Notes under the pieces: generated by a model | The model's input: only the letters and a program-made list of their open reading frames with translations | Database searches by the model: none | Told to the model about the DNA's origin: nothing | NCBI GenBank assembly: GCA_963402885.1 | Contig: OY727096.1 | Location: 29,369,820 to 29,433,819 of the forward strand | Source of the DNA: Antedon bifida | Taxonomy: Eukaryota > Echinodermata > Crinoidea > Comatulida > Antedonidae | Length of the DNA: 64,000 bases | Reading direction: 5' to 3' | In this document: positions 20,964-62,371 of the stretch, piece by piece | How the letters are laid out: each line of letters opens with the position of its first letter | How positions within the stretch are numbered: position 1 is the first letter of the stretch | Made by a program: the position numbers and the translations under genes

Positions 20964-21315
20964 TCAAATACCTGATGGCTCAGATTTTAACTTTTTTATA
21001 GTGTTTTTTAAGGCTTGACGTTTGTTGCAAAACCACACACGAATTACCTCCCGGTCGTACCCAAGTTTTCCCGAAAGTTCCGTCATGTCCTGTCCTGACG
21101 GGTGAGTATTCTTCTCAAAGTGAGAGTTGAGGTACTCCAAGGCTTGCGGTGTGAATGATGTTCGACGTTTACGTTTCTTGGTCGATTCACTCCCGATAAA
21201 ATCGGTCAACTGTGACACCCCATTCTTATGTCTTTCTTCTGCCTCTTCCATCCATCGCTCTAATACTGGTTTAATTTTCTGGGCACTTTTCGGTGTAATG
21301 TCCAATTTTTCAAAC
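20964..21315 (-). CDS. POU6F: POU6F exon 8: end of POU-specific domain and homeodomain
   Basis: Acceptor TTGAAACAAG, then GTTTGAAAAATTG. Encodes residues 607-723: the last POU-specific helices, the linker and the entire homeodomain, then KKLKSEPSGI and TGA. A possible donor CAG/GTATTT lies at 20972/20971, just before the stop, so an alternative longer C-terminus from a downstream exon cannot be excluded. Confidence 0.93.
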
Positions 21316-24300
21316 CTTGTTTCAAATATTAAAATATAAATTAGTTATCACAATAGCAAAGATATTCTGTTACGCCATTACATGAGCCTGTTTGATCAGA
21401 AATATCTTGTACTAAAATTAATTCTAAACTACCAAAACTGGAAAATGGTCTCCAAGGAAGCAAGGGACAGAGACGCTCTATTTATTAAAAGGAAATATGG
21501 GACCAAACAATGTTTCCTCTTATTAGGGCTGTCCCCTGAATACAGGTGTCCCCTGGATAGGGATGTCCTCTGAATATGGACATTCAAGAGGCTACAGTGA
21601 GAATAATAAGATATTCCCCCTTGTTAGTTTCACAGAAAATTTCCCCCTTAATATAAAAGGACCTACTGTTTTTTTTCTTTCAAAAAACGAATAATGTATA
21701 CTATGGATTCTGATATATTATACCTGCAAATTGCACTTTGGCTGTATGAAGGACCTTCAGTGGCACTTAGTGCTTGTCCTACTTGGGTCTGTGTCAAGCC
21801 TAGTGAAAGACGTCTTATCTTAAATTGCTTGGCAAATTCCTTGATGTCCTCTAAGTTAATTCCATCCACTTCTGTAGTATTACCAAGACTACTTACTGTA
21901 AGATAATCATTAGCCCAATTGTTACTACATTGTATTATTTGACAGGTAGGACATTTGTATAGCAAAGTTATCTAAATTGTTAACCCTTTTAAAAGCACTG
22001 TTTTCAATTTGTATAAAAGGAATAATAAATAATGGAAGCTGATATGATTAATTAGTTATTACAGAGTAAAAACAGTAATTATAAATTATTAGATTGGCAT
22101 TACTTATTGCACAAGCAAACCTTAAGTGGCAATTTTAAACTGACTTAATGATTAAGCATGTTTTGCACAGTTGAATTGTTGGTATAAATATATGTGTACG
22201 TTATTCAATCAATCATACATTTTTCTGGTATTATAATGGTAATCATAATAACGTGTATTTACAGTGATTTTTACCAAAAAAAATTCATTATAAAATATAT
22301 ACAGTGATTATTTACAGTAATGATAATAATAATAATGAATTGTTTATATTGACTATTATTGGAAACAGAAGTTGAATAATAAAATACTGGGCAGAGTATT
22401 CCAAACATGTGGACCTGAAATCATTTTTCATACTTATCATTCAATATTTTATATTATAATATATTATTATTTATATGTTTATGATTACTATATACTTAAT
22501 TAAGTATTTTCTACTGACCTGCTAAATTTCCCAATGGGTTTGATGAAGGAGATGCTACAGACGTTTGGCCAAGTACCCCTTGACTTACTACGGTTCCTTG
22601 ACTCGTAATTAATTGACCTCCGACCATTTGACCCGCAATAAGTTGACTGCCAACACCAATTTGACTAGGTAGACCATGAACGGAGGAAAGGCTATTATTT
22701 AGGCCCGATGGTAGGGATTGGCTAACACCGACTTGGCTGTTTAAACTTGGTAAAATATGGGTTGAAAGTCCTGCGTTCGCTAAAGCTTGACTCGTCAATG
22801 TGTGATTTGATGTGACGTGTACAGGAGAATCATGACCTTTGACACCATTAGTTGTAATGGTAGGGGTTGTGATCGAGGTAGTTGTGATGGTGGTCGTTGG
22901 TTGGGTCTTTAAAACTGTTGTTACGCTAGGTAAGTTGCTGGTCTTTGTCGGCATTTGTGTATGGATTTCGTTCTTGACAGAGACTGGTAGTGAAGGGAGC
23001 CCTCTTGTAGCAACTGCGTAAGAAGTTAGACTCAAAGGAGACGTTGGTGCAGAGGTAACTTGTGATGATTTAGGAGAGGCTATTCGTGCTAATCCAGCCA
23101 TAGCTGTAGAATCAAAAAGAACAAATAATGTATATTATTTCTATGAGTGCTAATCATCTGAAAAAATGTATTTGTTACTAATACTTCTTTGCCTACATAA
23201 AATATCAGTTAAACAGATATTTTTATACATGTGTTTTTTAATCTGCTGATCCTTCCTTAAATATTATCTTTAAAGACCCCCACCCTCCTTTTCCATCTTC
23301 CCAAATTTTTAAATGAAAAAACTGCAAGAGGTTTCCTGAAAATTGTTGAAACAATTAAATGAAGTCCCTAATAAACTTTATAAGGCAGTTTCTTATTCTC
23401 ACTTATCTTATTTTCCGCCAAGATCTCTCATTCAGAGGCACAAACACGGTGATGGGAGGAGGTGAAGGTTAAGTCACATGTCCTTTTACTCTTTGTTCAA
23501 AATTAATTTCTATCTTTGTCAGAACATGTTATGATTTCATACTACTTCAATATATATAAAATTGAACTATTTAATATGTTTACTTATGATTTATGCTCAC
23601 AAATGTTGTTTTTAAAACAGGATATAGCTACAAAATATTACTAATGTTGTTGGTGTTCTTCATATATGATTGTTATTATAGTAGATTCTGTTAGCTCTCT
23701 ACGGTGATGCACCTTAAATTCTTACAACATTCATGATCCAGTTTGCGCCATTAAAGACTCTAAGTACTACTATTAAATTGGGTCACAAGTTCAGCTTGCA
23801 TATTAGAAGAATTTACAAACCCATCATCAGTTATCATAGGCCTAGGGATATGAACAGATTAGTGAGCCACTTTTTAACTCAACAAACTACTACTGTTTTA
23901 GAATTTTTACTAAACCAATTGTAATACTAATATGTTGTTTAAGTAAACGGATCTCAAAGATTTATCTGTAAATGTGTTAATTGGTTACTGGTTACTAATG
24001 TATTTTAGTTCATGACCTAGAAGAACCTTTACTATCATAGGCTATAAATGTGTTCGGCACTAATGTGCATATCCTAAATACTGTACTCTATTATAACGAG
24101 TCTAGCTCCCTCTGGAGGTTTTTTACTGGTTAATAGTATATTCACTATAATGACACATCTGTATGCACAGTTGAAACTAATTTAAATGTTTAGGTGTTGA
24201 CTAGTATTCTATGATATCCCAGGTAATAAACAGACAATTGGAGCTCAACACATATTTAAAATTACACAAGTTAAAAGGTCAAAAAGTAAGGCTGTAAAGT

Positions 24301-27300
24301 TATGAGGTATTATATATGCAACATTAGTCCAATATCCAAAGTTATAAAGAATGAAATATCTAACAACCAACCATACATACTATGTTTTGTCATTTTCATA
24401 TTGCTAATCACATTCACATTACCTGATCCAATAGGATTTTCATGTTCAGACAGTATATGGTCTACATGCTAAAGCTTGGTTCTCACTAGGACACAGTGGG
24501 GACACAGTACAAGGGTGCAAAACCAACACAAGTAATTTCACCAATGAAAAGCAATGGTTTGGATGAGCCAGTTATATTACTTTAGTTCTACCTATTGCAT
24601 TGTGTCTACATGGAAACAAATCTTAACTAACATGGGATTTTTACATGTAAACAAAGTTTGATTTTCATTGGACTTGTTCAAGGATTCTGTGTGATTGTGG
24701 CAATTGAAAGAGAACCAGTTGACTTGGGTGACAATCAAATACGTTTTGGTTGTTAACTCTTCCTTACCTGGTCCTGTGATCCCTTGCATGCCCACTGAGT
24801 TGAATGATGGGGACATGGTTAAGACCTGACCGTTAGCATTCATCAGCATCTGAGTCATCGGGGCTGGCATAGGTAGACCGGTCTGACTGGCCAAGACAGA
24901 CATAGGAGGTAATGGCGTGTTCGCAGGCAATGTTCCCATCGAGGTGAAGTTTACCATTGATGGTAGCGATGTATGTGATTTAGCTGTAGACGTTGACCTG
25001 CTGTGAAGTGAACCAGTTGTGCTAGTGGTAGCATGCGATGCTAGCGCTTGATTTGCCATCACTTGATTGGCTAGTTGAGCTGCGGCTTGAATTTGATTGG
25101 CTGCAATCTGACTTGCTGTAATAGGATTGGTCGCTGCTAGTTGACTAGCTTGTCCAGTGAGTGCCTGAAGTCCAGCCAAGTTACTGGTCAGTAGCTGGCC
25201 AGCAGATGTTGGAATGAGGAACTGAACACCACCTTGCCCTTGAGCCAGAGTCACTGGGATTGATATAAGTTGCTGCTGACCTGCAGAGTTTGTGATGGGT
25301 AAAAGAATCTGTTGTTGACCGGTAGCAGGACTGGACGGAATGGTCAAGAGCTGTTGAGCACTAGCAAACTGTAAGGAAAAGAAAAGGCGTTAACTCAATG
25401 TTTTAAACTGTCCTTAGACAAACTTCTAAAGTTTGACTTATAGATCAAAAGATGGAGATAAAAAAATTATCTGAAATATGCACTTTGACAACTTCAACTT
25501 TTGTTTTATCACTCCCTGTGTATGGCTATGTTTAAATTATGTGTATATAAATTATAACACAACCTTTACAGTACTAATACGCAACCAATCAAAGCTCATG
25601 AAATGTCAGGTTCATGAGAAAAAATAATCGAAAAGCTTAATAGACATACAATAAAATGAAAATCGAAGCTATTGTATTGGAAAGGGTAGCGCCATGTTTT
25701 CTCTGCGAAAACATGGAATTTGCGCAAACAATTTCGCTTGGTGGAAGACAGGTTTAATGGTAGGGTCTGTACGTACAAAGCAGGACAATCCAAGTTTCTG
25801 TTTTGTGTGGAATATACAGAATGTTTAGATTTTACCAGGTCACATTGATTCAAATCATATCTCAGCATTAGAGAATTTCTCCTTGTAATATTTATATTTT
25901 ATGCTTCAATCTCAATAAGAATCTCATTTATTAGAATATCTTTAGCATACATCTCTAGAACCTGACTTGCATTCATTAGTGCTGATTGAACTATATACAT
26001 AAAAACAGAGATGACAGATAACGGATGTAGAGGCGCCAAACTCGACAGAATGATTCATTTTATCTATACCTAGAAAATGCGGTTTGACTCTGAGAATATT
26101 AAACAGTATTGTAAATTATAAAACCTTATAGATTACTGTACATGGGATATTTGTATCATGAAATATTACATAGTATAAATAACACTTTATTTTGTAGGCC
26201 TAAATGGTTACAAACTAACCTGTGGATTGCTAATCAAGGCCTGGTTTGAGGGAAGGCCTTGTAACGTTGGACTCATCAGTAATTGTTGGCCTGGAATAGA
26301 AGTCATTCCGGCTAAGCCGGACGCTAACTGTGTGGTCGGCGTGCCTGGAACTTAAAAAGTACAAATATTGATTAAATGTGTGTATTGGTATCATCGTTTA
26401 ATTTTTCTATCAGTTTTAACTGTGTCTAGTGATTTACCAAATGTATGTTTACAATGGAATTTTTGTTTTTGTCTTTAATCCAATTTTGTTGTCAATATAC
26501 GTAGTATAAGTATAAAGAAGTATAAATGTGAACATTTTAAATGTGTTGTAAAATAGAACATTAGGAATATCAATTCAGTCTAGGGCTATATGATTTATAA
26601 ATAAAAATATAAAGTTGATAAATCATCTTTCCAATTGTAATGTAAAAGTGATATCATATAGAGGTTAATTGTTGCTTTTTTTTATTTGGATAAAGTGATG
26701 TCATCAAAAATACAAAGACATCTCTTGAAACATGCTGTAGCAACACATTCTAGATAGCATTAAAATAAAAATCATTAAACCACTGCACAGTATAAAGAAA
26801 GAAGCTATTAAGTTGACAATAGACAAAGGTTCAGTTGTAAGCAGGTGGCACACATGCTTACAATAGAAAGCATAATGGAGTGTCATATTTGATCAACTCT
26901 CTCCAAGTATTAGGCTTACTACAATTAATTAATTAAGCTGACGAATATACAGTGATTGTAATCAAGGTGTATAATGAGTTTCTGCACTTAAACTCCTGAG
27001 CCAATCTTGTTCATCTCTCACTTATCAAAATGGGCCTACATAAAAAATTGAGATTGATTGAGATTTCTGGACACCAGTGCGAAATAAAAACACATTTACA
27101 AAGCAACAAATAACATAACAAATACAGTAAATAAAACTAATTTAAAAAAACACTAAAAAGAGGTAAAATGAAAATACAATTGAAACTACATAACAGTTTA
27201 CGTAAATTAGAACCCTCCTTTTTAGGGATACCCCTATTAAAGGGACACTTTCCCAATGAATTAGAGGCTATATACAACACTACACTAGCTATGCCTTTAG

Positions 27301-30300
27301 AGGGACATCCCTAGACTTGCCCCAAGTTTGTTTTTTGTTCATGTTAGTCCACCTTTCGATTTTTGTCTGAATACTACAGACTAGTAAAGGGGAAATCGAT
27401 TGGCAGACCGCAAACATAAGATAAGATTGATGTAGGTTATCATACTGTATTTGGCTATATGGGGCGGGCGGTATGTATTGATTTTGAATCAACCAATGAT
27501 CAAACGGACGTCATTTTAGTTTAAAAAATAGATCGACTGAAACAACAATTGCTAAAATATAAATTTATAATAATTTATATATCAAATAAGAAAGAAAGGG
27601 TATGAAAAGCTAGCCTGCCTTACCTTGGAATGGAAACTTGGTGGGCGTGGATGTAGGGCTTCTGTGTGTGGTTGAAGTTTGAGCCAGATTTTGCATAGCC
27701 ATCAGTATGTGGTCTGACGCACTCTGTGATTTGGCATTGGCCATGTTAAGTGGGAGAGAAAGTCTAGGAGAAAGTGCCTACAGTACAAGTAGAAATAAAA
27801 ATAAACTTTAAGTTATAAACAAACATTTAATATACTTCCTGATTCATGACATACAATTGCACTTTGTGTCAAACATTATGTGATAAAAAAATATGTGGAC
27901 ATGATGATGTCATATCACTACCATATTTGGGTATATCACTACCATTAATGGTGCTCTTTTCAAAAACATGGTATCATCTATCAGTGTGCTGATCAAGGCA
28001 CTATTGCTGCCATAGATCTTCAAAGAGTTTAAATAAATCCAAATTTTATCAGAGTTTCAGTAAAAAACACCAAAGACCATTAAACATACTGTAAACAAGT
28101 TATTCTCATTCAGTACTGTAGAGCATCATGACATTTTATGGAACAAAATTATCAGCATTTTAATATGTCATCTGGACAATTCAGTAACACACTATGTTGG
28201 CATTTAAACTGATAAAAGAAAGCTTCTGTACCATTGAGCAATAATTTTCTCATTTAAGAACACAATGAATAATTTAATTGATAAGCTTTATTGCACGGAT
28301 AATAAATTCTATTTAAATGTATTATCTCATAAAAACAAATGTATTAAAATTTATGTGTAATTGAATAAAACATTAATGTTTATAATTGATTTTTATATTT
28401 TTTGTTGTTGTTGCTTGAACTTGATTGTTACAATTGCTTTCTTATGTTTAATTTTATCAGCTGTACTGTATACACTTATTGATTGCTTTATACAAATAAA
28501 CACAAATAAGACACAAATTATGTTTGTTAAATATTTTGTATCTGTGTGTTCATTTGGTTAGCAGTGCAGGTTAGCATTGCAGGTTTCAGTTTTTTAAGGG
28601 TCTCTGCTTAAAAGCATATTTCAAGTTCCATAACTTTTTATGACGTTCGTAATGAAGTTATAGAATACAAATTTGACTGATTTCAGGTTGTGGATCTGAA
28701 GCACTAGGTTCGAAACCCATCCTCTTCAATGTTTTCTTTTATAATAATTGAGAGAGATAATTTAGAGGGTTTGGTTCAATTATTAGGAAATAAGTTTGCT
28801 ATCTTATAATTAACATAGAAAATAATTAATTCATGATTTCTGCCTTAGAAAAAAACATTGCAGCCAGGGCAACATAACAAATTTTTTTTGAAAGGTATCA
28901 ACTAGTTTGTTGTTTTTAAATCTCAGAATACATGCCAATTTTAACTTCAAAAAAACTGTTCTTTAGAATTTAAGAGGCAGTAATTGCTAGAGCTGACTTA
29001 TTTCATCAAAGTTGTAGCCTATTTACGTCAAAGGAAACAGCATCGTCATTTCAGCATGTTCCATTATGCATCGCACACGTCTACCACTGTATCCTTTCAC
29101 TATACACATTTCCATTATGACATAGCACACATTCAATGCATAAAAACTCTCTTTACTTGACAATTTAAGTTAAAAATATGCTCAATAATTTACACTGTTT
29201 AATGTGTTTTACTTCCGCTCACCTAAATTTTTTAACTGCTTCAGGACGTATTACAAAAACGTGATAATTTACATAATGCGATTAAGTAATTGACGGATAC
29301 ATTATCTTTGATCTTGATACATGTACCTTATAGTTCTTTAGCGGCAGATATTTTGTCTAAGTACATGAATAGAGTTAAAGAATAAATTTGAAATGATGTA
29401 AATGTATTGTAATTACAAGTTACAAGTTTGTAATTCCATTTTATCAATTGATTCATCGATGATAAACTTGTGAAAATAGGTCATGTCTCGTGTTATCGTT
29501 CTGTACGTCTGATGATCAGAAATGGCTTTAGCAATAATACATGATTTTTTTGAAAGATAAAAAATGATAATGGTAGCTAGGTAATGGTCAACTAGTGTTC
29601 AACCACAAATCTGTCTCCTCTGTTTGATGGTAAAAATAGGATGAATAGAGTAATTACACAATGGTTTAAATTGTATATTAGTGTAAAACTGTATATTCCA
29701 TTATTTATTTATTGTTTATTTTTCGCAATTGAGAACCTTACCGCAAAAATTGTCAACTCGTTAAAATATCGACAATTACGTAGAAAAACAGCCCTCGATT
29801 CAAAGTTTCAAAAACTGCATAGGACAAATCAAAGTTCAGCCCTCGGCCACATCTAAATTAGAATCTTGGATCTGCCACTAGGAGTGGAGGTTTGGGATGA
29901 GAGAATCTGAGATGTTGCATAAACAATAGGAAACTAACCGGAGTTACTGATGTGCCAGTATTAGCATGATGAACATTGATGGATGGGGTGGTAGCAGTAG
30001 CAGCACCTATTTCTGTCGGTGGTGAATGGTGATGATTGGATGACTTTCTGTCCATTTCCTTGTCGTTATCTAGTCCATTAGTATTGCCGCTCCACTCTGC
30101 AAAATACAAACAATTTTATTTTGTTAAGAAACATATGGATTTATGTGTGTAGACAGCAGTGGAAAATCTGATAAAAAGTATTATAACACACCTAAGTAGA
30201 TCCTTGTCATTTGAGTGGAGGATTCATTATTTTGAGTCACATGATTTAAATAAATGTTCTATTGCACTCTTATGTCATTATATGCGCACGAGTATTACAA

Positions 30301-31092
30301 TTTTGTTTCACACAGTAATTAAGCAACCACATCCGCAACAAGAGGCTGTTGTTGACTGATCATGTTCTATCAACCTGTATTGTAATGTCTGTAATTATTC
30401 TACTCCATGTCCAAAATTAGGACCTAAAATTGGAGGTCTGCTTTTTGAATAGTTTATGCCTTTGGTCTAGCCTCACGCTAAAAGTTGGTGTGTTGTAAAA
30501 CATAAAATGAATGTCAATTATTTGTGCAATGGAACAATTAATTTCATTCTGTGAAAGATGAAAATTTGTTATATTTTCACCTCATGAAATTATTAGTACC
30601 ATCGCATTCATAAACATTCATTATTTGTATTATATACTATAGTCTCAAATTACACTCAGCAAACAACAACAATTATGTGCAAAGACCCTCTATTTACAGC
30701 TCAGTAATACTTTTATAACCTAAAAATTGCAGAATCTAGTATAATATAGTAATGTTGCCTTTAATATGAATTATAGATGCTACCCAGAAATTTAATTTCA
30801 GCTTCTTGGGGCACACCCTCAGGTACCTGACAATGTTTTGCGTGCACTAATCGCCATATAGTAGTGCAATTTAACCAAACACATCAAAAAATGTTTTAAC
30901 ACTAAAAACCCTACAGTAGAATGCTGATTAAAATTGCTATGCAAACAATACTCTTAATAAATAGTTCAATTTAGTAGCATATCTGAGCTATGAATATTAA
31001 ATATAGTCAAAATGAGAAAACAAAAAACACATGTAAATGTTTGTTTTTAATTTTGAGGTAGGATACCACTTACCGTATTTGAAGAGGTGCAT
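20964..31092 (-). CDS. POU6F: POU class VI homeodomain transcription factor (POU6F type)
   Basis: Nuclear DNA-binding protein of the Brn-5/RPF-1 class, rebuilt from eight exons: 31092-31074, 30096-29939, 27777-27624, 26350-26220, 25368-24768, 23103-22519, 21895-21724 and 21315-20964. Every junction has GT/AG ends and compatible phase, and the sum is 2172 bases (723 residues plus stop), close to vertebrate POU6F2 length. Residues about 155-550 are a Gln/Ser/Thr-rich region with the class-typical NANGQVL motif, presumably transactivating. The POU-specific domain is at about 559-636 (VDGINLEDIKEFAKQFKIRR, LTQTQVGQALSATEG, SQSAICRFEKLDITP). The homeodomain is at about 653-713 (KRKRRTSFTPQALE, recognition helix with WFCNKRQ). 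Class VI assignment is firm from the domain wording; POU6F1 versus POU6F2 cannot be assigned in an invertebrate. The N-terminal start is the least certain part. Confidence 0.93.
21316..21723 (-). other. POU6F: POU6F intron 7, inside the POU-specific domain
   Basis: Splits the Arg codon of ICR/FEKL (AG|G). Contains short repeated phrases of the type TGTCCCCTGRATA (21528-21585), also seen near 27220 and 53800. Confidence 0.85.
21724..21895 (-). CDS. POU6F: POU6F exon 7: start of POU-specific domain
   Basis: Acceptor TTATCTTACAG, donor TTTGCAG/GTATAAT. Encodes residues 550-606, including VDGINLEDIKEFAKQFKIRR and the helix 2-3 region LTQTQVGQALSATEG that contacts DNA in POU factors (known). Confidence 0.93.
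22519..23103 (-). CDS. POU6F: POU6F exon 6: Ser/Thr/Gln-rich linker region
   Basis: Acceptor GATTCTACAG, donor TTAGCAG/GTCAGT. Residues 355-550. Thr-rich stretch (TTTITTTSITTPTITT) then SQ/GQ repeats such as GQMVGGQLITSQGTVVSQG. Probably disordered and transactivating. The G|TA codon across the donor restores Val before SSLGNTTEVDG, confirming phase. Confidence 0.9.
23104..24767 (-). other. POU6F: POU6F intron 5
   Basis: About 1.66 kb. No additional exon or repeat family that I can support. A 63-codon plus-strand frame (23733-23924) has no resemblance to known proteins. Confidence 0.6.
24768..25368 (-). CDS. POU6F: POU6F exon 5: Gln-rich transactivation region
   Basis: Acceptor TTCCTTACAG, donor GGACCAG/GTAAGG. 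Residues 155-355. Gln-rich hydrophobic repeats (GQQQILLPITNSAGQQQLIS, LAQGQGGVQFLIP, AANQIQAAAQLANQ) and the class-typical LMNANGQVLTM motif near its end. Confidence 0.9.
26220..26350 (-). CDS. POU6F: POU6F exon 4
   Basis: Acceptor CTTTTTAAG, donor AATCCACAG/GTTAGT. Encodes residues 111-154, with PGTPTTQLASGLAGM and LQGLPSNQALISNPQ. Open in exactly one frame, and both end phases match the neighbouring exons. Confidence 0.82.
26351..27623 (-). other. POU6F: POU6F intron 3
   Basis: About 1.27 kb with no exon or mobile element supported. Carries a short GGGATACCCCTATTAAAGGG phrase (about 27226-27246) related to repeats at 21.5 and 53.8 kb. Confidence 0.55.
27624..27777 (-). CDS. POU6F: POU6F exon 3
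   Basis: Acceptor TGTACTGTAG, donor TTCCAAG/GTAAGG. Residues 60-110: ALSPRLSLPLNMANAKSQSA, DHILMAMQNLAQ, then a Thr/Ser/Pro run. The internal Met in LNMANAK could be an alternative start, but the frame is open up to the acceptor and continues into exon 2. Confidence 0.82.
27778..29938 (-). other. POU6F: POU6F intron 2
   Basis: About 2.16 kb, AT-rich. Includes a fragment (27879-27955) of the MITE found at 1284 and 57251. No exon supported. Confidence 0.6.
27879..27955. mobile_element. Internal MITE fragment
   Basis: TATGTGGACATGATGATGTC and TATCACTACCATATTTGGGT match the interior of the elements at 1284-1424 and 57251-57422. Terminal repeats are not recognisable. Confidence 0.55.
29939..30096 (-). 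CDS. POU6F: POU6F exon 2
   Basis: Acceptor TATTTTGCAG, donor AACTCCG/GTTAGT. Residues 7-59: EWSGNTNGLDNDKEMDRKSS, a short His run (NHHHSPP), then Ala/Thr-rich sequence. Phase 1 entry and phase 0 exit fit exons 1 and 3. No known domain; accepted from splice logic and single open frame. Confidence 0.75.
30150..30310 (+). repeat. Dispersed repeat, copy 1
   Basis: ATAACAC(AC)CTAA, then CCT(T)GTCATTTGA, GGTCACATG-like and GCAATAGTAC-like segments occur in the same order at 63303-63400. Both lie in introns. Ends are not clear. Confidence 0.5.
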
Positions 31093-31115
31093 TTTTAACC
31101 AGGTTCTTATATAAA
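31074..31115 (-). CDS. POU6F: POU6F candidate exon 1 (42-bp microexon with start codon)
   Basis: Bounded by acceptor ATCCTACAG and strong donor AATACG/GTAAGT. Only 42 bases. ATG at 31092 reads MHLFKY and its last base joins exon 2 to give Glu, keeping frame. Upstream of the ATG the exon is open in frame, so coding could in principle continue into an earlier exon. If it is joined to the candidate exon ending at 47160, an in-frame TGA appears upstream, which supports 31092 as the start. Not verified by transcript. Confidence 0.5.
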
Positions 31116-47922: not shown

Positions 47923-47949
47923 ATGGCAGAAAACACGGAAGCCAAAGAG
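47923..47949 (+). CDS. VPS41: VPS41 exon 1
   Basis: MAENTEAKE after context CCAACCATGG, a good Kozak match. The donor must be GAG/GTCGGT because only that joins exon 2 in frame. The better-looking GTAAAT four bases downstream would lead to an early stop. Confidence 0.85.
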
Positions 47950-50900: not shown

Positions 50901-53900
50901 TTTTCATTCATCCATCCATCTTTTCATCCATCCATCTTTTCATCCATCCATCTGTTTATATTCTTTAAAATTTATAATTGTTATTTAATTACTGTATCTT
51001 ATACTGTAGGTAGCTGTAACAGGTCTATACGAATCTGAACACAATGTTGTACAGGTGTTTGATTGTCCTATAAAGGTAAGAAATCTATGATAAGAAACTA
51101 AATGGTTTATATACCCTATACCAACAGTATATGGTATTTGACCAAAATTGGATTGTATCCCAACGTGGGCTTATATCTGAAACATTTTTCAGTAATTATC
51201 ACCTTTGGAAATAAATAATATATTGAACCAAAGTTAAAATATCTAAAACCTTGTAACAATAAACTATATTAAATAAAAGTATTTACTATATCATACATTA
51301 AGTTGTTTACTTAAGTCTGTTTCTTTTTTTTTATATTTTCTCTTATACTCTATATTGTAAATATTGTAAATAAAGAATACTGATATGTCACTATATACTG
51401 ACTCAATCTAATTATCATTTTACTGTGCTACTTTGGCCTTATTTGAAAGTGTACATTATTATAATTTATGATGAAGTAATAAATATTAGTCATAATTTAT
51501 GATAATGAAGTTTGATGGATGTTGAATGATTTGTGGGCTCTTTACTGTTTTACATCTGCTTTCATTAATCATATTGTTTGTATCTTATTTCATTTTATAA
51601 TGTAAAAGTTACCTAATATCTTTGTTTCTCATTCTAGGCTGTAGCCCTAGATCCTAAGTTTTCAGTGGGGAGTAGCAGACGTTATGTAACAGGGGGAGAC
51701 AAGGTAAGTACACTGTGTTTGCTATTTCTTTCTCTGTTGTTCTTGTCACCCTGATCTTTTTAATATTTGTACATGTATTTCAATGTTCAATATCTTCTCG
51801 GATATAAATCGTAGGTCCAGTGTACACAAATTAGTCGTGTGCAATTTAAAGAACCTAGTACATCTTTCAAGATGAGTAGGGAGTTACCCCGGTGTTGTAC
51901 TAGTTCATACTGCCACACACATACACTACTTAAAGTAGGCCTTCTAGTTCCGTTAGTTCCTTCTAGTTTTATTGATATAAATCAATTTGTTGATTGTTGA
52001 ACTTTTGAAGATGAAGAGCCCTTTTTTATAACATTTATGTACTGTAATCTTGCCTCAGTGTTTACATTTTGTTCTGTTCATGTTCTGTTGAAATTAATGA
52101 TATGATCTTAGTTCTTAGATGAATTTTTTTTTTAAACATTGGTCTTTAATTGGGATGCCTGTGTATTGTGACCATTTTGACTATTGAATAGTATTACCAT
52201 TTTAAACCTATGAGGGCGCTATCATTTATCATCAAATTCATTGACCGTAACGTCAACTACTACCAAGGACAAACTATAACACTGTATAATGTATGGAAAA
52301 ATGATATTGCATTTTTAAAGTGCTTACTGTATTTTGTGAATGAATATAAAATTGTATAAAATTTGTGCCACTAAAGTTATTGAAACAGATGTCCCCAATG
52401 CAAGGCCACTATTAACAATACTGGCCAGGCCAAACAGAAAAATATTAACATTATTGAATGTTTCAGTGATGGGCCTCTCAATAGTAATAAGTAGTACAGT
52501 AACTTTAGATAATATTGTTCTCTTGCTACACGATAATGCTATCCTATAGATTTACCTATCTGTTTACAACAGCTGTGTACATATGATACCAGTGATAACG
52601 TATTGATTATTGTTGTTATGCCTTCTAAGATTTCATATTTGTGTAAAAAAAAACAACACTATGAAATAACTAACACTGCAACAGCAACTGAAATTATTAA
52701 ATATTTTTATAGAAAATTATAGTACATTTTGTATACTGTTAGAATACTGTAGCAGTATTACTATAAAGTACATTCATTTATGGATTTTCTTTTTTTGTGT
52801 GTTAAATTTAACTACACATACAGTAGTAACTGTATTGTAGTAATACTTTCTTTATTCCTAAAGAATCTTTCTTAAAGATCAACAACTGAGTGCTACTGTA
52901 GTTAACTAGATTGGTCGAAATTATTATAAACAATGCATGTCATTTTTTCTCTATAATATCATAAGCAACTGTCTACTTAATACATAAGCAGCATGTGACA
53001 ACATAATATAATAAACATCCTGCAGTGTCATGTATTCTGACATCAACTGTCATCCCATGTGATACTATAGTTGTAAGAGATTATTGAGAGGATTAGGTTA
53101 AGTTGATATTTTGAAGTTAGGTGCTATGATAAGCCTATTGCTGTTATCAGACACGATACTGCACAATGTTTATTGTTTTACTAGCCATGATACCGTACAA
53201 GAATCGGCTGCAATTAGGACATTCAAAATTAAACTATCCCAAAATAAGAAAATATTTAACTTAAATAAAGGCCTTTTTCCACCTATCCTCATTTAAATCC
53301 AATAATCCTATGAATATCTGAAACACATTTTTCCATCCACAACTAAACACACACCTACACTTCTCTTATTTTGTATTTTGAGATATTAATATTTATGATG
53401 CCATTAATAATTGAATTAATTTGAATAATAGTGCTGCTTTGATTTACTGCATTTTATTTAATTTACAGTAAGTGTCTATTTGTAAAAATAATGAGGTTTG
53501 AGTTTTAGAAAGAAAAAATATATCACTATAGAATCTATGCCATGAGAGTAAAAATGATTTATTGATCTAGAATAAATCGTACTGTAGCTGAATTGAGAAA
53601 ACGCTTATGTATTCGGGCACGATATATTCTACTTACGACTGGAATATTGCAGTTGATATTTTGAAGTCTACATGTGAATACTTGCCCCATGTAGAGGGTC
53701 ATAAGAACAAAAACAGAACAGTTAAACACCCCTTTTAAGAGGATACTTTTCCGAGAAATGAACAAGGAGAAATAATGTTTTTAAACTATGGCCAACCCCT
53801 ATTTAGGGGCCACCCAATTGAGGAGACCCTTTGGTGGGTCTTGAAGGTGTCCCTTAATAGGGGTTCTACTCTACTGGTTATATGCATCGGATCAATTATA

Positions 53901-56900
53901 AGTTTAATCATGATTAGAAGATTATTTCTTTCATTGAAAAAGGAAAATTAAAATATTTTTCAATTTGCATTTCATTGATTTGTAATTTAAATATATAAAT
54001 TAATTTGTACTTTAATTAAAACTTGTCTTTCAGTTGCTACTACATGAGAAGGGATTATTTAATCGAAATAAATCGACAGTAATCCACGAAGGTGAAGGTC
54101 AAATTAGAAATATTCAGTGGAGGTCATGCTTCATTGCCTGGAGCAATGAATTGGTAAGTTTTTTAAAGGATAACTCCTGAGTTTAAAATTTCTCTGGTTT
54201 AATTATAAAATAAGTATTGCAACCATATTGATAATGGAACATTCGACGGAACACATAGACGCTAATTGTAGGCTTGCATCCCAACATACAATGCACACGA
54301 TCCGTCCATTTTGAAAACAAAAACATCAGGAACCAAATTTTTCTCAATTTAGCATCAAACCAAAATGTTAACCAATGGGTATGTAAGAACTATTCAATTT
54401 GTGCAGATTAATTTTTTTTTCAAACAAGGGGAAATCTAAATTTATCTCTTTGTCAGCATTTCAACATTCGTGTAATATGCTCGGCGTGTGTTGCATGCGC
54501 GGCACATAGACCTATGCTTCTGTCTTCAAATCAAAACAAGTTGTTAATGCAGATGTTCACAAGGCTATAACTTTATGCAAATTTAAGTAAAAGTAAAATT
54601 CATTTAAATGCAGTGTAACCAACGGACAAGCACCGTCTCAAATCAGTTTATGGTTTTGCTTACTCAACTAATTTCAATACAGTGCGACATACAAATTCAC
54701 AGCACAGTCTCATATATTTAAATATTTCTATGATAGTTTGGCTTGTCTAGTACAGTACGTGCCAAGCTTTTACATTTATTCATTTCAATGCAGTACAGAC
54801 TTAATAGCATAACACACTCTCATATATTTAAACAGTTTATGATTTCGCTTGTATAATACGTGCCAGGCGTTTAAATTTATTCAATTCATTGCAATGCAGT
54901 TGAACCACTAGACTTAGCACAGTCTCGTATATTTAAGCAGTTTGCTGGATTAAATTGTTTCGACGTTAATTGCTTTGCTGTCAAAGATGATAAGATCATT
55001 CATCATTACCAAGTAGGATTTAGAATGCTATCAACTTAAATCTATCAAAATGGTATATTATTACAACTGTAATAAGAAATGCTGCACTAAAGCAAAACAA
55101 AATAAAAACAAAACAGTTATTTTATATTGAAATTAAGTAGTTAAAAGTACATTAGCGATATTTCAATTCATACAGTAATAATATTTAGTATTTACTGTAT
55201 TAAGTCATAATAATAATAATTTGTAGGTATGTTTGAAATGGATATTATACAGTTAGCAAGGAAAAAGAATGATGTATTATTTATATTATGTATAAATTCC
55301 ATGTATATTTAGCTATGAAAAAAATACTACTGTAGTTAGGTACAGTACAGTATCTGTAAACAATATTAAAAAGAAAAAAATTGTGACCGTCAAATGAGAT
55401 AACATTATGTACTGTACATGATCAATTAACAGTATAACCCATACATTTTTTGTAAACCACAACCAACAAAAAAAATGTAGTTACTGCAGAAACTACAGTA
55501 GAAAAATGATCCCTAAGAAAGTTGTGCCTTAAATTACAAAACGAAGTAGATCTTTATCTCTAATTAAAAAAAAGAATTAAACATAATTTACTTTAATCTA
55601 TGTACAGAATAAACCATTTTCACAAGCACTATTCTCTCTCTATTCTATTTCTATTTTAATCTTTTCCAAATTGTTATTATTATACTAAATTAAAAGCTAT
55701 TAATAATTAAATGTAAATAAAAAGTTTGAACAAAACTGTTCACATTATTAACAATAACAATCTACTTTTTTATCGATAATTATTAATATGCAAATCTCTG
55801 CATTTAAATAAAGAAATCTATTATGCTTACCGGTATAAGTTCCGCATGACAGAGCTTGTGGCCGCCAGATTATGAATCTAAGAGAAATAGAAGGTAAAGA
55901 GATGCAAGTAAATTTAAAAATGTGGAATTGATTTTGCAATTAGTTTGATGCTGTGTTTGTGAAGGGATTCTATAACTTTGTTTGATCTTATCTTCCTGCT
56001 GCGTCTCTAGGGAGTGAAAGTTTACGATGTGTTGCATAGACAACGAATAACATTCATCCGTCGAGACCACGGTGAAAGTTTACGCTCGGAAATCTATGCT
56101 TGTAGCATTTGTTGGAAGGATGACAAAACCCTAATTATTGGATGGGCTGATACAATTAAGGTAAGATACCAGTTACAAATCTAAACCAGGTCAAAGGTTA
56201 GCAAACTGGTGGTGGACTGAAATGTGTTGCGCATTTTCCTTCCATGATGCTATATTGAAATCATCCAGACGTTATAATCAATGAGTTTGCAATTTTACTA
56301 AACCTTACTATGAGAATCTGTTAATGTTAATTTTCAACTTTTGATAAAATTAACAATAATGACATATATACAATCTTAGTTTTTTCCAAACATTTCTTGT
56401 TGTTAGTGTGATAATCCCTATTGCAGCACAGCATGTTCCACCACCAAACGATAGATGAGAATGCATTGAACATGCCTATGTTATGGTCATATGTTGCTTT
56501 AACCACTCAATCACTTAACTCGTCATTTATGCATGTTAAGTTGCAAAATATTTTTCCTTCCAGATATGCGTAGTTAAAGACAGATTGCCGTATGAGGCAC
56601 AAGCAAGGCGGTTACCACTACGTTTCGTTGAAATAGGTAGGCTTAGAATGCAACATCGTCACTGTTTTAACTGGATGAAAGCATTAAATAAGTAGCCCTT
56701 GCTTGTGACTAATAATAGTCTCTACTATCATCAGTCTTGTTTTATTGAAAATCAAAATAATTGTTGATGCTGTGCATCCAAAATAGACATTAGTCCTTAC
56801 AAAACAGCTGTTGATTGACGTGATTGTAAAATTACTTAATTATAACAGTACTGAAATGTACAGTATTTCAATCATCTATTTTTATCTTTCTGTTTTTTTT

Positions 56901-59900
56901 TAGTATCAATATTTAACACAGATTTCTTTGTTTGTGGAGTCGCTCCTCTTGATGACAAGCTGGTCGTGCTGGCTTTTCTTCGACAAGAATCGAGGGATTC
57001 GGTAAGGCATTGCTACCCATTAGTGATAGAACAGAATGATAGTGGCATCATAGTTTACTAATCAAAGTGTCCTAGTTTTAAAACGTTTAAACAAATGTTA
57101 TTAATGCCCCATAATCTTTTAATGACACACATAAAATAAACTATTAAAAAAAATTGTGCAGGTCAGTAGCCTCTTGCGCTGATCAACACGTTAGGTACTT
57201 TGTGGTACATTACCAAGATTTTCAGATTGCCACAATGCGACTTAACTTAAGCTCTGTCTACACTATCACACTACACTATCACACTTTATGTGACAACAAA
57301 ATGTGATGTGCCCATATATGGACATGATGATGTCATATCACTATAATATTTGGACATACCACTACCATATTTAGGTACATCACACTTTTTTTGTCAAACT
57401 AGTTTGATAGTGTAGACAGAGCTTTACACTGATTTCTATATAAGAAGATAATAGCAGTCCTGTATAAACATCACAGTACTAGTGTAGTAGTTAACAAAAA
57501 AAAAATCACCGCTACCCATAATCATAATTCTGTTGATGTTGAAAGATAATCAACACTAATAAATTAATCATTAATTACTTCCAGGAAATCAGATAATATG
57601 CCTGATTTTTCAGATTCATATTCACACATATTATCTCATTATCATTCATTATTGTTGCAGACTATTTAATAAATCAAATTATAATTTTGATTTCTTAGTA
57701 ATTGAACTTCAACTATAGATAAAATTATCATGATTCCTTTTAAGGCTTTGATCAGTGCAGATGATAAGAATATTTGGCATTGCTTGTTTATTCTGTCGTC
57801 TGGTAAAAGAATCTGCCTCATGATAGAGAAGGCTTAGGTAGTTAGTGCACTGTTTTTCATAATACTGTAATAAAAGAGGAATTACACATTGTCTTAAAAG
57901 TATGTAGCTCATGCATGCATTGAAAGATTCTACTGCATGGATGTCTTGTATATCTCTGGCGACATCTTTTTGTAATGCTAGGCTTCTCTTTTTGATGTAA
58001 GGCTTCTTTTTGAATTGTCATACAGTACTTCTTTTTGAGATGCCAGGCTTCTTTTTGAAATGCCAAGCTTTTTTTATAAGATGCCAGTCTTCTTTTTGAG
58101 ATGCCTGGCGTCTTTATAAGATGCCAGGCTTCATTTTGAGATGCCAGGCGTCTTTATCTATCTTTAGTATGCATACTCAATCAGTATGGATATACTGTTT
58201 TTTCCTGAAGCCAAATAGTAAAGCATGTCAAAAATATAAGAAAGAAAATCTTGTATTGAATCTATTATAAAAGATTTTGAAAGAAAATTTCATGCTAAAC
58301 TGATGATTAAGAATATTCTATAGATAAACAAGAGAAATTTGAAAATACTACAAGGTGAATTAAGTGATCATTACATTATGATCATTTCAGTAAATGTCTT
58401 TCCATCCAGAAAATAAAATACAATACCTACAGATAACCACAGATAATAGGCCCTTTCATACAGGAACGAAAGGTACTTTATAATGCAACTAACATGAACT
58501 CTTAACCTTTGAATGTTAGGCCTGAAGCCCTACCTGTATACCACATGCTTCCATAAATGTATCCTCACATGAATAATATATGTACTAATTTGATTTATTT
58601 GAATTTCTATTAATTTCCTGCGGTCTAAAGCAAGCCACATGTTACTAGGCACTTCTTGTATGCCCAGAATTATTCCCATATCCATCACTCTTTCCTGTTT
58701 TAAATTGCTGATGCATAACACCAGCCAATGATGGATGGGGTCATGGTATCTAATGATAAATGTAGGCTAAGGTGGAATCAGTTTTTTTCTTTTTTTTCAC
58801 AATGTTCATTACTACAAACCTTTTAGATAAGATACTGTAGATGGAGAAAACTGCTTTCTTTTTTCACAATGTTCATTACTGCTATCTGAAAAACTAATTT
58901 CTTTTTTCACAATATTCAATGCTCCAAACTACTAGGTGGATTTTTCACAATATTTATTATTACAAAAAATTGATATAGATATTTGGAGAAAAAATGTTTT
59001 GATTGATACAGATAGGTGAGAACAAAATTTTTTATCTTTCCACAATGTTCATTACTACAAACCATTGAGAAAACTGCTTTCGTTTTTCACAAAGTCTATT
59101 CCACCATTAATATGAATTGAAAAAAGGTTTTCACAAATGTTATTACAGCAAACCATTAATAGGATAGGTGAAAGAAAATGTTTTCTTTTTTCACAATATT
59201 CATTACTCCAAACCATTGATAGATAGGTGGGGAAAAAATGTTTTCTTTTTTCACAACATTCATTACTCCAAACCATTGATACAGATAGGTGTGTAAAAAA
59301 CTTTCTTTTTAACAATATTCTAATAAATTAAACATAAATCCACTGCACCTGTTGTACACATATAGTGTATCACACTTAATTTACATCATTTTTTGAAATT
59401 TATTAGCAATAAAATATCAAATCATTTTTACATTTTAATAATTTATTGAAACATAAAAAAAATATATAATTGGTGTAATGTGTGTTCAGTAAGTATTTTA
59501 AATTGGGTCAAACGTATGTTTAACATGACTATCTTTTCTAGGTCAGATATTCTGTCACTCCTCTAAAGCATGGGTGTATGTCACCACCTTCAGTTCATTG
59601 CTTTACTTAAACATTTACTGAACTGGCAATAGGGTCTATGGTAATAAATTGGACAGTGAAAATGCTCTAAGCTTGTGTGTTTTAAAGCCTTTTTTCTGTA
59701 TGATAAAAACTCTGATTAGAAAAAATTTTGTGTTATCCTCTACCTATGTGACTATTGGGCCTCAAGAAAAGTCTGGTTTTTGGAGAGTTTCCGGTTTCCA
59801 GAGAGTCTGGTATTGGGAGAGTTTACTGTATATTTATTGTTATTTTTTGTACAGGAGAATGAATCACAAAGACCACAGTTGAAGATTATTGATCCCAAAC

Positions 59901-62371
59901 CAGACGATTATGAAATAATTTCAAGTGACGCACTCTCAATACGAGGATTCCAAAAATACGAAGCAAACAATTATCATTTAGGTTAGTAGAACACACTTAT
60001 TATTTTGTATGACATCGCACGTTTATTAGGTCGTTGCAAGCAGGTGGTCTGGTTATTGCAAGTTGCATATTTTAAGGAATTGAGGTAAAAATACCCTAAC
60101 ATTTTTAACCAGATTAAAATTAATTTAATGTTGTGAACACAATATTGGCGAACATAAAATGTGGTTTCCAGGTAGTTAAAACACAACTAAGTATTGTACA
60201 GTGATGATTACATATCGGATAAATGTTTAAAACAATGTACAGATAAAAACATCTAAAATTGCAGCGATTCACATAACGTAAAAGAAGAATAAATAAAATA
60301 AATTTTAATCTTTGGAAAGAAAAGGATACATAATGATTATAAAATTTAATTTGATGAATTCATCTGCATTCTCCAAATTATTTCAATATTGTTTTATTGT
60401 TCCTATCTGTAGAATTTCTCTTTAAAATTTTAATACATGATATATACATATTTCCTGTATTAATTAATTAAAAAATTAATTTCCTGTTGAATTACCTATT
60501 AATTTTATAGTAAAATGTCATTGACTCTTCCCACACAGTTGAATTATATATCTGTTTTTACAAAAGTCATTTATTTTTCTAACATTTAACAGGTTAAATT
60601 TTAACTATTCATATTGCATTCTGTCTAATACATTGTTTTTCTAATATTCGTTTCATAAAGTTCAAGTTAGTTCTGTTAAAACTGAATAAATAAACACTCA
60701 GACCATGATATAAAAATTGAACAACCACAAAATAAAAGAATGTATTCAAAATGTATAATTAATGTATAAGGCAATCTTTGTTTATAAACGTTTTGTACAG
60801 CCTTCTCAAGACAATATATTTGTTTTAACAAAACATTACATAATTTGGATTTTGTAATGTAAAAGAAATTTGTTGAAATTGTTTAAAAAAATTCCATTCC
60901 ATTTAAAGAATTTGATGGACAAAAAAAGATTTGTTTCACAGGATGAAATAATTTATGGTTATACTAGTAGAAAGAAATATTAGCATTTGAATTTTGCTTG
61001 GTTTCAATTGCATTGACATCACACCCACTCAATTATAACCACTGATAGCCTAATAGAGTACAGTAATAAATAATTATTAATTTACAATTGAATGAAAAAC
61101 AAATAAAAATGAAATATATATTAATAAAATAATGATAATAATACACAAACAATTATATGAAAATAGTCATTAAACAATCATTAACATTCCTGATGATGAT
61201 CAAATAAAGATTGAAACTTTCCTCTTATTATTTGGAGTTAGGTTTATACCATGTCATTCAAAGATAGTGATTCAATGAACACACTTTCTTCTACATGCCC
61301 ATAATAAAATATATTTTCTCAATCTTGTCAAAACCTGATGCTAATCGAACCATTATTCATATCGGATATTCATAATCCCTGGTATCTTTTTCTCAATAAA
61401 ATTTGGAAAATTAAATTTATTCCAAACTTCTTAACATATGTTTTGATTTTGTGCATTTTGTTTGTTGTCACTTATTTCGGTGACATTTTCTCTCGTGACG
61501 GCTTATTTTTTTATGTCAATCTATCCCATGACAATGACATATGTGTGATTTAGATATCCTGTTATGTTGTTGTCATGAATATTTGTTTTGCAAGATTTTT
61601 GAAATCTTTGTACTAGTTCTCATCAGTTTTTAAAGGTAAAAATTGGTCGATGTATTCATTCATATGACTGTTAATGTCACTATTAAGATAATGTACATTT
61701 TATATACAGTACTTACCTTTATTAGTATTAGTATAATCATTTATTTGATCAAAACTTTATTGTGTAAAATCAAAATCATGTTAATGACAGAGCTCATATA
61801 AAGATACTGTACATATAACACAGAGGCTGCCAATATACCTGCCCTATTTATTCAACCAGCATACTATCCATATAATACAACATATAAACATGAACAATTT
61901 TGGGCAGCTTAAGTAGTTTACAATCAAATGAGCCAACTACCCCTTAATGAGACTAACTACTAATTAAAAAATATAGCAAGAATTAAAAAACGACTGTACA
62001 TACATGGTTTTCTCTCCATCTAAGATTTATTTATAGATGTAAACCTACTCTAATATTATTGGCTACCATGTTCAGAGTTATTTAGTTACCAAGTTGTAAT
62101 GTACCTACCAAAATGAGTCCTCCCACCCCATTTTTATAATGGTAGAGTCCATTATTAATGGCTTTTGTTCTGGTAATTAGTGTACAGTATTAAATGTCTT
62201 TTCCACATTTTATTTTAATAATAAATTGGTTTTTTTTTTCTACTTTAATATTTAGAATATATTGAAGATGAATGTACTTTCCATATTGTTAGTCCTAAGG
62301 ATGTTGTGGTTGGACGTCAGCGTGATATGGATGACCACATCGCTTGGTATATGGAAAATGATAAATATGAG
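47923..62371 (+). CDS. VPS41: VPS41, HOPS complex subunit (N-terminal half; continues past window)
   Basis: Twelve exons giving 397 codons: 47923-47949, 48632-48820, 49102-49185, 49961-50035, 51010-51075, 51638-51703, 54034-54153, 56011-56160, 56564-56636, 56904-57001, 59855-59981 and 62256-62371. All junctions have GT/AG ends and matched phases. VPS41 is a tethering subunit of the HOPS complex in late endosome-lysosome fusion and also acts in the AP-3/regulated secretory pathway (known). Visible features are an acidic N-terminus (residues about 14-40), then LKYERIRNDLEKILEKHAAS and WD40-type propeller blades with the family phrases HEGEGQIRNIQWR, GVKVYDVLHRQRITF, CWKDDKTLIIGWADTIKICV, EISSDALSIRGF-like and HIVSPKDVVVGRQRD. 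Vertebrate VPS41 has about 850 residues, so the clathrin-repeat and RING-H2 parts lie beyond the right edge. Confidence 0.96.
48170..48400. repeat. TAGGCCTA-rich cluster in VPS41 intron 1
   Basis: Dense run of AGGCCTA/TAGGCCT words, for example TAGGGCCTAGGCCTAGGCTA and GTAGGCCTACTACTAGGCCT. Also a TGGTGTCACGAGACT duplication near 48173 and 48220. Confidence 0.9.
48632..48820 (+). CDS. VPS41: VPS41 exon 2: acidic segment and first blade entry
   Basis: Residues 10-72. EQYLSSEEEDSEEEDSEED and a following Asp/Glu run form a very acidic stretch containing several Ser-x-x-Asp/Glu sites typical of casein kinase 2 targets. Then KYERIRNDLEKILEKHAASC. Confidence 0.95.
49102..49185 (+). CDS. VPS41: VPS41 exon 3
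   Basis: Residues 73-100, FLAMGTHWGTVHVLDHQGNN: a WD40-like blade strand pair matching the family phrase FLALGTH-G-V-LLD. Acceptor TTTTATTTAG, donor GCTGTT/GTAAGT. Confidence 0.95.
49961..50035 (+). CDS. VPS41: VPS41 exon 4
   Basis: Residues 101-125, HTTTVNQISLDQNGDYIASC, then SDDGR. Typical WD40 blade phrasing. Acceptor TGTTATCAG, donor GACGG/GTAAGA. Confidence 0.95.
50210..50960. repeat. Large CATC/TTTC-rich minisatellite in VPS41 intron 4
   Basis: About 750 bp of degenerate units mixing TCCATCCATCTTTTCATCCA and TCTCTTTATGTCTCCATCCA. It grows more regular toward the right. It leaves all three plus frames open and so yields long false peptides of Ser, Ile, His, Leu, Phe and Pro. Confidence 0.97.
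51010..51075 (+). CDS. VPS41: VPS41 exon 5
   Basis: Residues 126-147, VAVTGLYESEHNVVQVFDCP then IK. Acceptor TATACTGTAG lies about 50 bases past the intronic minisatellite. Confidence 0.93.
51638..51703 (+). CDS. VPS41: VPS41 exon 6
   Basis: Residues 148-169, AVALDPKFSVGSSRRYVTGG then DK. Acceptor CATTCTAG, donor GACAAG/GTAAGT. Confidence 0.95.
51704..54033 (+). other. VPS41: VPS41 intron 6
   Basis: About 2.3 kb. No second gene supported. Contains a short inverted-repeat element at 53794-53865. Confidence 0.6.
53794..53865. repeat. Short hairpin element
   Basis: AACCCCTATTTAGGGG at the left and CCCTTAATAGGGGTT at the right, about 72 bp overall, form an imperfect inverted repeat. Related phrases occur at 27226-27246 and 21528-21585. 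Confidence 0.6.
54034..54153 (+). CDS. VPS41: VPS41 exon 7
   Basis: Residues 170-209, LLLHEKGLFNRNKSTVIHEG then EGQIRNIQWRSCFIAWSNEL. The HEGEG-IR--(K/Q)WR phrase is highly characteristic of VPS41. Confidence 0.97.
54590..54955. repeat. Degenerate about 107-bp tandem repeat in VPS41 intron 7
   Basis: The landmark TCTCATATATTTAAA (or TCTCGTATATTTAAG) starts at 54708, 54818 and 54923, with a shorter, partial unit before. Units also share ACGTGCCA(A/G)GC and CAATGCAGT. Confidence 0.75.
56011..56160 (+). CDS. VPS41: VPS41 exon 8
   Basis: Residues 210-259, GVKVYDVLHRQRITFIRRDH, then CSICWKDDKTLIIGWADTIK. Strong family signature. Acceptor GCGTCTCTAG, donor ATTAAG/GTAAGA. Confidence 0.97.
56564..56636 (+). 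CDS. VPS41: VPS41 exon 9
   Basis: Residues 260-283 plus one base of 284: ICVVKDRLPYEAQARRLPLR then FVEI. Donor GAAATAG/GTAGGC in phase 1. Confidence 0.94.
56904..57001 (+). CDS. VPS41: VPS41 exon 10
   Basis: Residues 284-316: VSIFNTDFFVCGVAPLDDKL then VVLAFLRQESRDS. Acceptor with a long T tract (TTTTTTTTTAG), donor GATTCG/GTAAGG. Confidence 0.95.
57251..57422. mobile_element. MITE, second full copy
   Basis: Termini GCTCTGTCTACACTATCA and the inverted GATAGTGTAGACAGAGC. The interior shares GTGATGTGCCCATATATGG and CACTACCATATTTAGG with the copy at 1284. Flanks are TTAA on the left and TTTA on the right, so the target duplication is slightly decayed. Confidence 0.75.
57960..58160. repeat. About 22-bp minisatellite
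   Basis: Repeated GATGCCAGGCTTCTTTTTGA with variants (GGCGTCTTTATAA). Roughly eight units. Confidence 0.85.
58780..59320. repeat. 60-90-bp degenerate tandem repeat
   Basis: Units carry TTTTTTCACAATRTTCATTA, then CTACAAACCATTGATA and GATAGGTG(G)A. Spacing varies. An 86-codon minus-strand frame (59055-59315) is a by-product. Confidence 0.85.
59855..59981 (+). CDS. VPS41: VPS41 exon 11
   Basis: Residues 317-358 plus one base: ENESQRPQLKIIDPKPDDYE, then IISSDALSIRGFQKYEANNY and HL. Matches the EISSDAL-VRGF signature of the family. Acceptor TTTTTTGTACAG, donor CATTTAG/GTTAGT in phase 1. Confidence 0.96.
59982..62255 (+). other. VPS41: VPS41 intron 11
   Basis: About 2.27 kb of very AT-rich DNA with no exon, repeat array or mobile element that I can support. 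Confidence 0.6.
62256..62371 (+). CDS. VPS41: VPS41 exon 12 (last in window)
   Basis: Residues 359-397: EYIEDECTFHIVSPKDVVVG, then RQRDMDDHIAWYMENDKYE. Donor TATGAG/GTAGGA in phase 0. The IVSPKDVVV and DDHI-W phrases are family hallmarks and lead into the clathrin-repeat half beyond this window. Confidence 0.97.

Follow-up and report, generated by a model that had tools for sequence, protein, structure and literature searches.

In the crinoid Antedon bifida, a class VI POU gene (POU6F) and VPS41 lie side by side and point away from each other. How old is this arrangement, and what has kept the two genes together? We examined them in a window of 64,000 nucleotides, the whole stretch from position 29,369,820 to 29,433,819 of contig OY727096.1 (assembly GCA_963402885.1), and all positions below are counted within it. 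A sequence-only reading of this DNA had proposed that the POU gene runs leftward and VPS41 rightward, and both the families and the divergent orientation were confirmed by Pfam searches and by joining the exons.

The POU gene occupies the minus strand from 20,964 to 31,115, and contains a POU-specific domain (E 2.3e-26) and a homeodomain (E 4.7e-17). Against solved structures its product scored 239.8 bits with POU6F1 (3d1n), the next being Pit-1 (5wc9) at 128.6 bits. Judged by similarity scores rather than a tree, and among the classes covered by solved structures, the gene belongs to POU class VI, with the next class far behind. A genome-wide search with the POU model hit six exons spread over four loci, this POU6F included.

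Seven POU6F exons join into 717 residues and a stop, with AG acceptors throughout and GT donors in all six exons that have one. The last exon (20,964-21,315; Pfam and exon joins) encodes the end of the POU-specific domain, the linker, the homeodomain and the stop codon, whose final base is position 20,964; the POU-specific domain begins in the exon at 21,724-21,895, which covers profile positions 2-47 (Pfam; AG/GT edges). AG/GT edges and an open frame define a Ser/Thr-rich exon (22,519-23,103; coding score 60.6) and a Gln/Ala-rich exon (24,768-25,368; coding score 73.7), each scored with the exon itself in the training set, and Pfam found no family in either. The exons at 26,220-26,350, 27,624-27,777 and 29,939-30,096 have AG/GT edges and fitting phase. 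Recognised coding sequence ends on the 5' side at 30,096, beyond which lies one likely mini-exon (31,074-31,115) with a TACAG acceptor, a GTAAGT donor in phase with the next exon, and a possible in-frame start ATG (MHLFKY/E).

VPS41 lies on the plus strand, starting at 47,923. Its exon 1 (47,923-47,949) carries the start codon and requires a weak donor, GTCGGT, and is followed by exons 2 (48,632-48,820), 3 (49,102-49,185), 4 (49,961-50,035), 5 (51,010-51,075), 6 (51,638-51,703), 7 (54,034-54,153), 8 (56,011-56,160), 9 (56,564-56,636), 10 (56,904-57,001), 11 (59,855-59,981) and 12 (62,256-62,371), the last inside the window. Joined, the twelve exons encode 397 amino acids; the Vps41 propeller model, 332 positions long, matches them from its position 1 to 330 (E 5.2e-113). 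The assembled protein also matches the PDB; a PDB search with long X-masked frames of the same stretch gave no match. The end points proposed earlier, 20,964 and 62,371, are exact exon edges, the second being the 3' edge of exon 12 with GTAGGA next, but VPS41 runs on past 62,371, to about 70.4 kb. TPR_Vps41 was found in four stretches of unjoined DNA (10 kb right of the window; E 2.9e-71) and again on joined fragments, and the Vps41 RING model (52 positions) matched weakly at about 70.4 kb, over its positions 20-42 and with 21.2 bits where the cut-off is 30.3. Searched genome-wide, the propeller model matched five places, four of which are exons described here (4, 7, 8 and 11). The fifth, on contig C8, was rejected as a second VPS41 since it is better matched by the models of WDR55, EML and CDC20 (best Pfam match WDR55, a general WD40 protein), and the propeller profile search found no second copy in the genome.

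Between the two genes lies a single-copy, CpG-rich island (46,982-48,281), a new observation of this analysis, delimited by two-state segmentation and supported by bins, a maximum-scoring segment and a single-copy check in which 47,000-47,920 matched one genome location, itself. CpG observed/expected is 1.14 at 47,001-47,950, against mean values per CpG-counting window of 0.45 (16,001-46,900) and 0.44 (48,001-70,500). On the VPS41 side none of 431 such windows reached 1.14; on the POU6F side 19 of 599 did, with starts at 40,632-41,532, all overlapping an inverted-repeat element. Across 264 kb, 8.9% of 5,242 windows reach the island's value. The maximum-scoring CpG segment in 45-50 kb was 47,031-48,407, where 43 of 208 CpG, TpG and CpA sites are CpG, and none of 2,000 label shuffles scored as high.

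CpG-depleted DNA flanks the island on both sides. Because segmentation shows 13.4-20.9 kb, past the POU6F stop, to be likewise depleted, CpG depletion is no proof of a gene body. Other CpG-rich segments lie in the last exon of POU6F (20,982-21,281; o/e 1.09), inside VPS41 (63,282-63,681; o/e 1.59) and at 40,882-42,081 (o/e 1.61). The last of these is the inverted-repeat element, which has 21-bp minisatellite arms (40,958-42,095) and sits inside the putative first intron of POU6F; we accordingly rejected a second promoter as the explanation of the CpG peak at 40.6-42.5 kb.

The simplest reading is that POU6F and VPS41 both start within about 1 kb of each other, from a shared promoter whose footprint would be the CpG island. 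The sequence-only reading had placed a common origin near 47.2-47.9 kb. The VPS41 start codon is at 47,923; for POU6F the recognised coding sequence stops at 30,096 and the likely mini-exon reaches only 31,115, leaving about 16 kb between the coding start (~31.1 kb) and 47 kb without a proven exon. Over that interval we infer the extent of POU6F from the CpG footprint. An untranslated first exon at about 47.2 kb is possible, with a candidate donor (A/GTAAGT) on the minus strand at 47,158-47,160. An ATG frame near 47.2 kb runs into the donor at 47,159; its phase misfits the next exon, and it was therefore set aside as the coding start of POU6F. Excerpts of PMC2648788 describe bidirectional gene pairs as having start sites at most 1,000 bp apart. 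The locus resembles such pairs in having divergent genes around one CpG-rich island, whereas they are defined by the spacing of start sites and this one by its CpG footprint.

On human chromosome 7p14.1 we take VPS41 to lie on the minus strand and POU6F2 on the plus strand, divergent, with start sites presumably tens of kilobases apart and with AMPH, YAE1, RALA and CDK13 as flanking genes. Compared with this assumed arrangement, the echinoderm locus has the same two families as neighbours in the same divergent order, and differs in the gap and in the flanks. Given the shared order, the adjacency was most likely already present in the last ancestor that echinoderms share with vertebrates. If the human orientation is as we take it, the families of both genes and the echinoderm host make this a cross-phylum match, in partial support of the earlier suggestion of retention across phyla; a bilaterian origin, as that reading proposed, is conjectural. 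Irimia and others are said to have described, in 2012, ancient metazoan microsyntenic pairs, in which a developmental regulator likewise sits beside an unrelated gene and is kept there across phyla. PMC2579482 places human POU6F2 near VPS41 and PMC8623992 names both genes. The main text of Frith and Ni (PMC10735318) mentions neither POU6F2 nor VPS41. Our literature search found no account of the pair outside vertebrates, several matches being judged from their titles to be vertebrate studies, and among the matches listed only PMC2579482 counts any VPS41.

On balance, we consider it slightly more likely than not that POU6F and VPS41 are an inherited neighbourhood in which both genes start in one CpG-rich island of about 1.3 kb acting as a two-way promoter. 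The island (46,982-48,281) is probably unmethylated in the germline, and the two genes would be transcribed outward from it. A break within it would part one gene from its promoter, and this loss would select against separation of the pair. The two genes, their families and order, and the island with its single genomic location are observed; we infer a POU6F start within the island, promoter activity in both directions, and a role for it in holding the pair together. Against this reading, if the human start sites are tens of kilobases apart, as we presume, a two-way promoter cannot hold the pair together in human.

A shared promoter is a different cause of adjacency from enhancers lying in a neighbour, and both may hold. 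Taken by itself, the second idea is possible, if on the unlikely side: the locus would be a genomic regulatory block, in which POU6F enhancers within VPS41 introns or across the gap prevent VPS41, a bystander, from moving away. Such blocks usually combine a developmental regulator, as POU6F is, with a housekeeping bystander, as VPS41 is, and the putative first intron of POU6F, at about 16 kb, is consistent with it. In excerpts of PMC2579482, five highly conserved elements remain linked to VPS41 across six vertebrates, yet its authors separate POU6F2 from this block, stating that it is not associated with it. This tells against the proposal, also made in the sequence-only reading, that retention reflects regulatory DNA of one gene inside or across the other. 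PMC2579482 was also the only literature found for POU6F2 together with "genomic regulatory block".

It is unlikely, in our judgement, that the pair is ancient and has simply stayed unbroken without selection. Chance alone does preserve some adjacent pairs where genomes rearrange slowly, and the flanking genes bear on this. Pfam searches of nine entries selected from the many frames in the 100 kb on either side returned VPS41 itself twice, a 7tm receptor, kelch, a TPP enzyme, TsaD, an ABC transporter and PLAT/lipoxygenase, with AAA_28 under the cut-off; an immunoglobulin-like frame within the window had no Pfam match. None of the flanking genes identified is among the neighbours that we assume for human 7p14, so any conservation would be of the pair alone. 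Such a difference is compatible with passive survival, but the exchange of neighbours while the pair stays hints at constraint, which a single pair in a single genome cannot establish. Highly improbable is the independent joining of the two genes in two lineages, for which this analysis found no supporting evidence: given the human arrangement, two given genes would be adjacent and divergent by chance with p ~3e-4 on one chromosome of an assumed ~1,500 genes.

Wider linkage was examined by profile searches of the genome. The amphiphysin BAR domain gave five matches, on contigs C8, C11 and C12, and none on C9, the contig of the pair. The CP2 domain gave three, on C1 at 3.0 Mb and none beside the pair, with TFCP2 and GRHL types not distinguished. 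Homeodomains gave 98 matches among 150 scored candidates, the only one beside the pair being POU6F itself. Thirteen of the matches lie on C1 at 7.23-7.64 Mb, and their spacing, rather than one-by-one identity, led us to read them as the Hox cluster; the human POU6F genes presumably sit on Hox chromosomes, whereas POU6F here lies on C9, away from this presumed cluster. Like the differing flanks, the place of this cluster and the absence of BAR matches from C9 count against an inherited neighbourhood. Pattern matches in viral contigs (39 for VPS41, 6 for POU6F) and in a prokaryote genome collection (66 for POU6F) included none that was confirmed. The mitochondrial code supports the echinoderm host, being of the echinoderm type, with AAA read as Asn. 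The 25 AAA codons of ND1 include 21 that align to mammalian ND1, where 8 face Asn and none faces Lys, while 7 of the 8 AAG codons face Lys.

Returning to the shared promoter, we can outline a history for the pair, one that we regard as distinctly doubtful. POU6F and VPS41 would have shared a two-way promoter in a deuterostome or bilaterian ancestor, and echinoderms would have kept it. In vertebrates the gap would have widened to tens of kilobases and filled with conserved elements, turning a promoter-bound pair into a long-range regulatory block without the order ever being lost. If the pair has been kept across bilaterians, the ~1.3 kb island would offer a compact site at which to ask what holds deep gene order, whether shared promoters, enhancers lying in a neighbour, or neither.

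The divergent arrangement described by the sequence-only reading was borne out: POU6F and VPS41 are both present, on the minus and plus strands respectively, and their families were assigned by comparison with PDB entries and domain models. The window corresponds to C9:29,369,820-29,433,819 of the assembly. POU6F, a class VI POU gene, was assembled from seven minus-strand exons with in-phase joins (30,096-29,939; 27,777-27,624; 26,350-26,220; 25,368-24,768; 23,103-22,519; 21,895-21,724; 21,315-20,964), giving 717 residues that end in a POU-specific domain and a homeodomain. A candidate 42-base mini-exon with a possible start codon, proposed from splice sites and phase, lies on the same strand at 31,115-31,074. 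Against the PDB the POU region scored 239.8 bits with POU6F1 (3d1n), the next match being Pit-1 at 128.6. When the whole assembly was searched (315.6 Mb, 27 contigs), the best candidates for the POU model were six exon matches at four loci, the POU6F gene of the window among them.

Exon assembly placed the first 397 residues of VPS41 in 12 plus-strand exons from 47,923 to 62,371, with the rest of the gene at 66.9-70.4 kb (window numbering), right of the window. The single PDB match to the protein with E <0.001 was chain F of 7zu0, named Vps41. The Vps41 propeller model has 332 positions, of which the gene covers 330; a TPR_Vps41 match follows the propeller (E 2.9e-71), and the Vps41 RING model matched weakly, under its cut-off. 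Genome-wide, the best candidates for the propeller model fell in five places, four of which are exons of this gene; a putative second copy on another contig (G000:C8:32,409,363-32,409,551) was rejected as a general WD40 protein with WDR55 as its best match. Within a VPS41 intron, a pyrimidine-rich minisatellite at 50,329-50,953 underlies plus-strand frames of 296, 231 and 216 aa.

Between the genes lies a CpG-rich island that is single-copy in the genome. The observed/expected CpG ratio (o/e) is 1.14 across 47,001-47,950, and two-state segmentation delimited a CpG-rich segment at 46,982-48,281, flanked by CpG-depleted stretches. The maximum-scoring segment within 45-50 kb was 47,031-48,407, where 43 of 208 sites are CpG (10/251 at 45,000-46,980 and 16/265 at 48,300-50,000), and none of 2,000 shuffles scored as high. 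Among the 599 scan windows of the left side (16,001-46,900), o/e averages 0.45; 19 attain 1.14, each of them overlapping an inverted-repeat element at 40,958-42,095. On the right (48,001-70,500) the average is 0.44, and none of 431 scan windows gets that high. Germline methylation of transcribed DNA in invertebrates typically leaves CpG depletion behind, so POU6F and VPS41 probably both start in the island, as judged from a CpG footprint rather than a start-site map.

Some other features of the CpG landscape argue against a shared start. Over 264 kb (the window plus 100 kb on each side), the island's CpG level is reached in 8.9% of 5,242 scan windows, and the segmentation also found CpG-depleted DNA past the POU6F stop (13.4-20.9 kb). 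It further marked three CpG-rich patches inside the two genes besides the island: 300 bases in the last POU6F exon, the inverted-repeat element, and 400 bases with o/e 1.59 at 63,282-63,681, in the part of VPS41 that separates exon 12 from the exons following it. The arms of the CpG-rich inverted repeat are 21-bp minisatellites, the longest being 92-95% complementary. Elsewhere in the window, an ACGTT-rich tandem repeat occupies 5,241-5,802, and the 5-6 kb interval has the highest o/e (2.82) of any 1-kb bin between 1 and 100 kb.

Left of POU6F are immunoglobulin-domain exons, followed by ABC transporter, PLAT/lipoxygenase and TsaD-type genes; a kelch gene, a 7tm receptor and a TPP enzyme lie right of VPS41. 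None of these is known as a neighbour in human 7p14. Among the genes identified, conservation could thus involve the pair alone. BAR-domain matches in the genome search fell on other contigs only, with none on C9, which carries the pair. The immunoglobulin-like exons (8,732-8,965; 11,938-12,078; 13,376-13,621; minus strand) are weak matches in Pfam except the first, which alone passed the I-set cut-off; one such frame, searched alone, had no Pfam match. A similar frame lies at 595-708, and a retroelement sits amid these exons (RVT_1 reverse transcriptase domain, 6,502-7,251, minus strand, E 8.7e-29). Right of the window on C9, a long open frame at 138,896-142,150 (window numbering) resembles a retroelement polyprotein by eye.

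Elsewhere in the assembly, 13 homeodomain matches in a 0.4 Mb run on C1, a contig other than that of the POU6F-VPS41 pair, were taken for a whole Hox cluster. Four homeodomains share a single 3,043-aa open frame (G000:C13:14,069,236-14,071,734), as in ZFHX-type genes. At one locus on C27, COX1 has six in-frame TGA codons and ND1 has 25 AAA codons, 21 of them alignable to mammalian ND1; Asn stands opposite in 8 and Lys in 0, while 7 of 8 AAG codons face Lys. By these codon comparisons the mitochondrial code is NCBI code 9, used by echinoderms and flatworms. With the Hox-like run on C1, a flatworm source becomes unlikely.

In human 7p14.1, VPS41 (minus) and POU6F2 (plus) stand head to head, the same gene order as in the echinoderm. 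Of the proposal of an ancient bilaterian linkage, with regulatory DNA of one gene inside or across the other, the ancient linkage is supported for two phyla, from the one genome analysed and the human arrangement taken as background; a bilaterian age would reach beyond these two phyla. One study places human POU6F2 near VPS41 and links five highly conserved elements to VPS41, and states that POU6F2 is not associated with the VPS41 conserved-element block (PMC2579482); another lists both among the genes of 7p14 deletions (PMC8623992). As a cause of the linkage in Antedon bifida, a shared promoter explains the data no less well than an enhancer-based regulatory block, both being proposals. The POU6F-VPS41 pair is probably a new example of an already known kind of arrangement.
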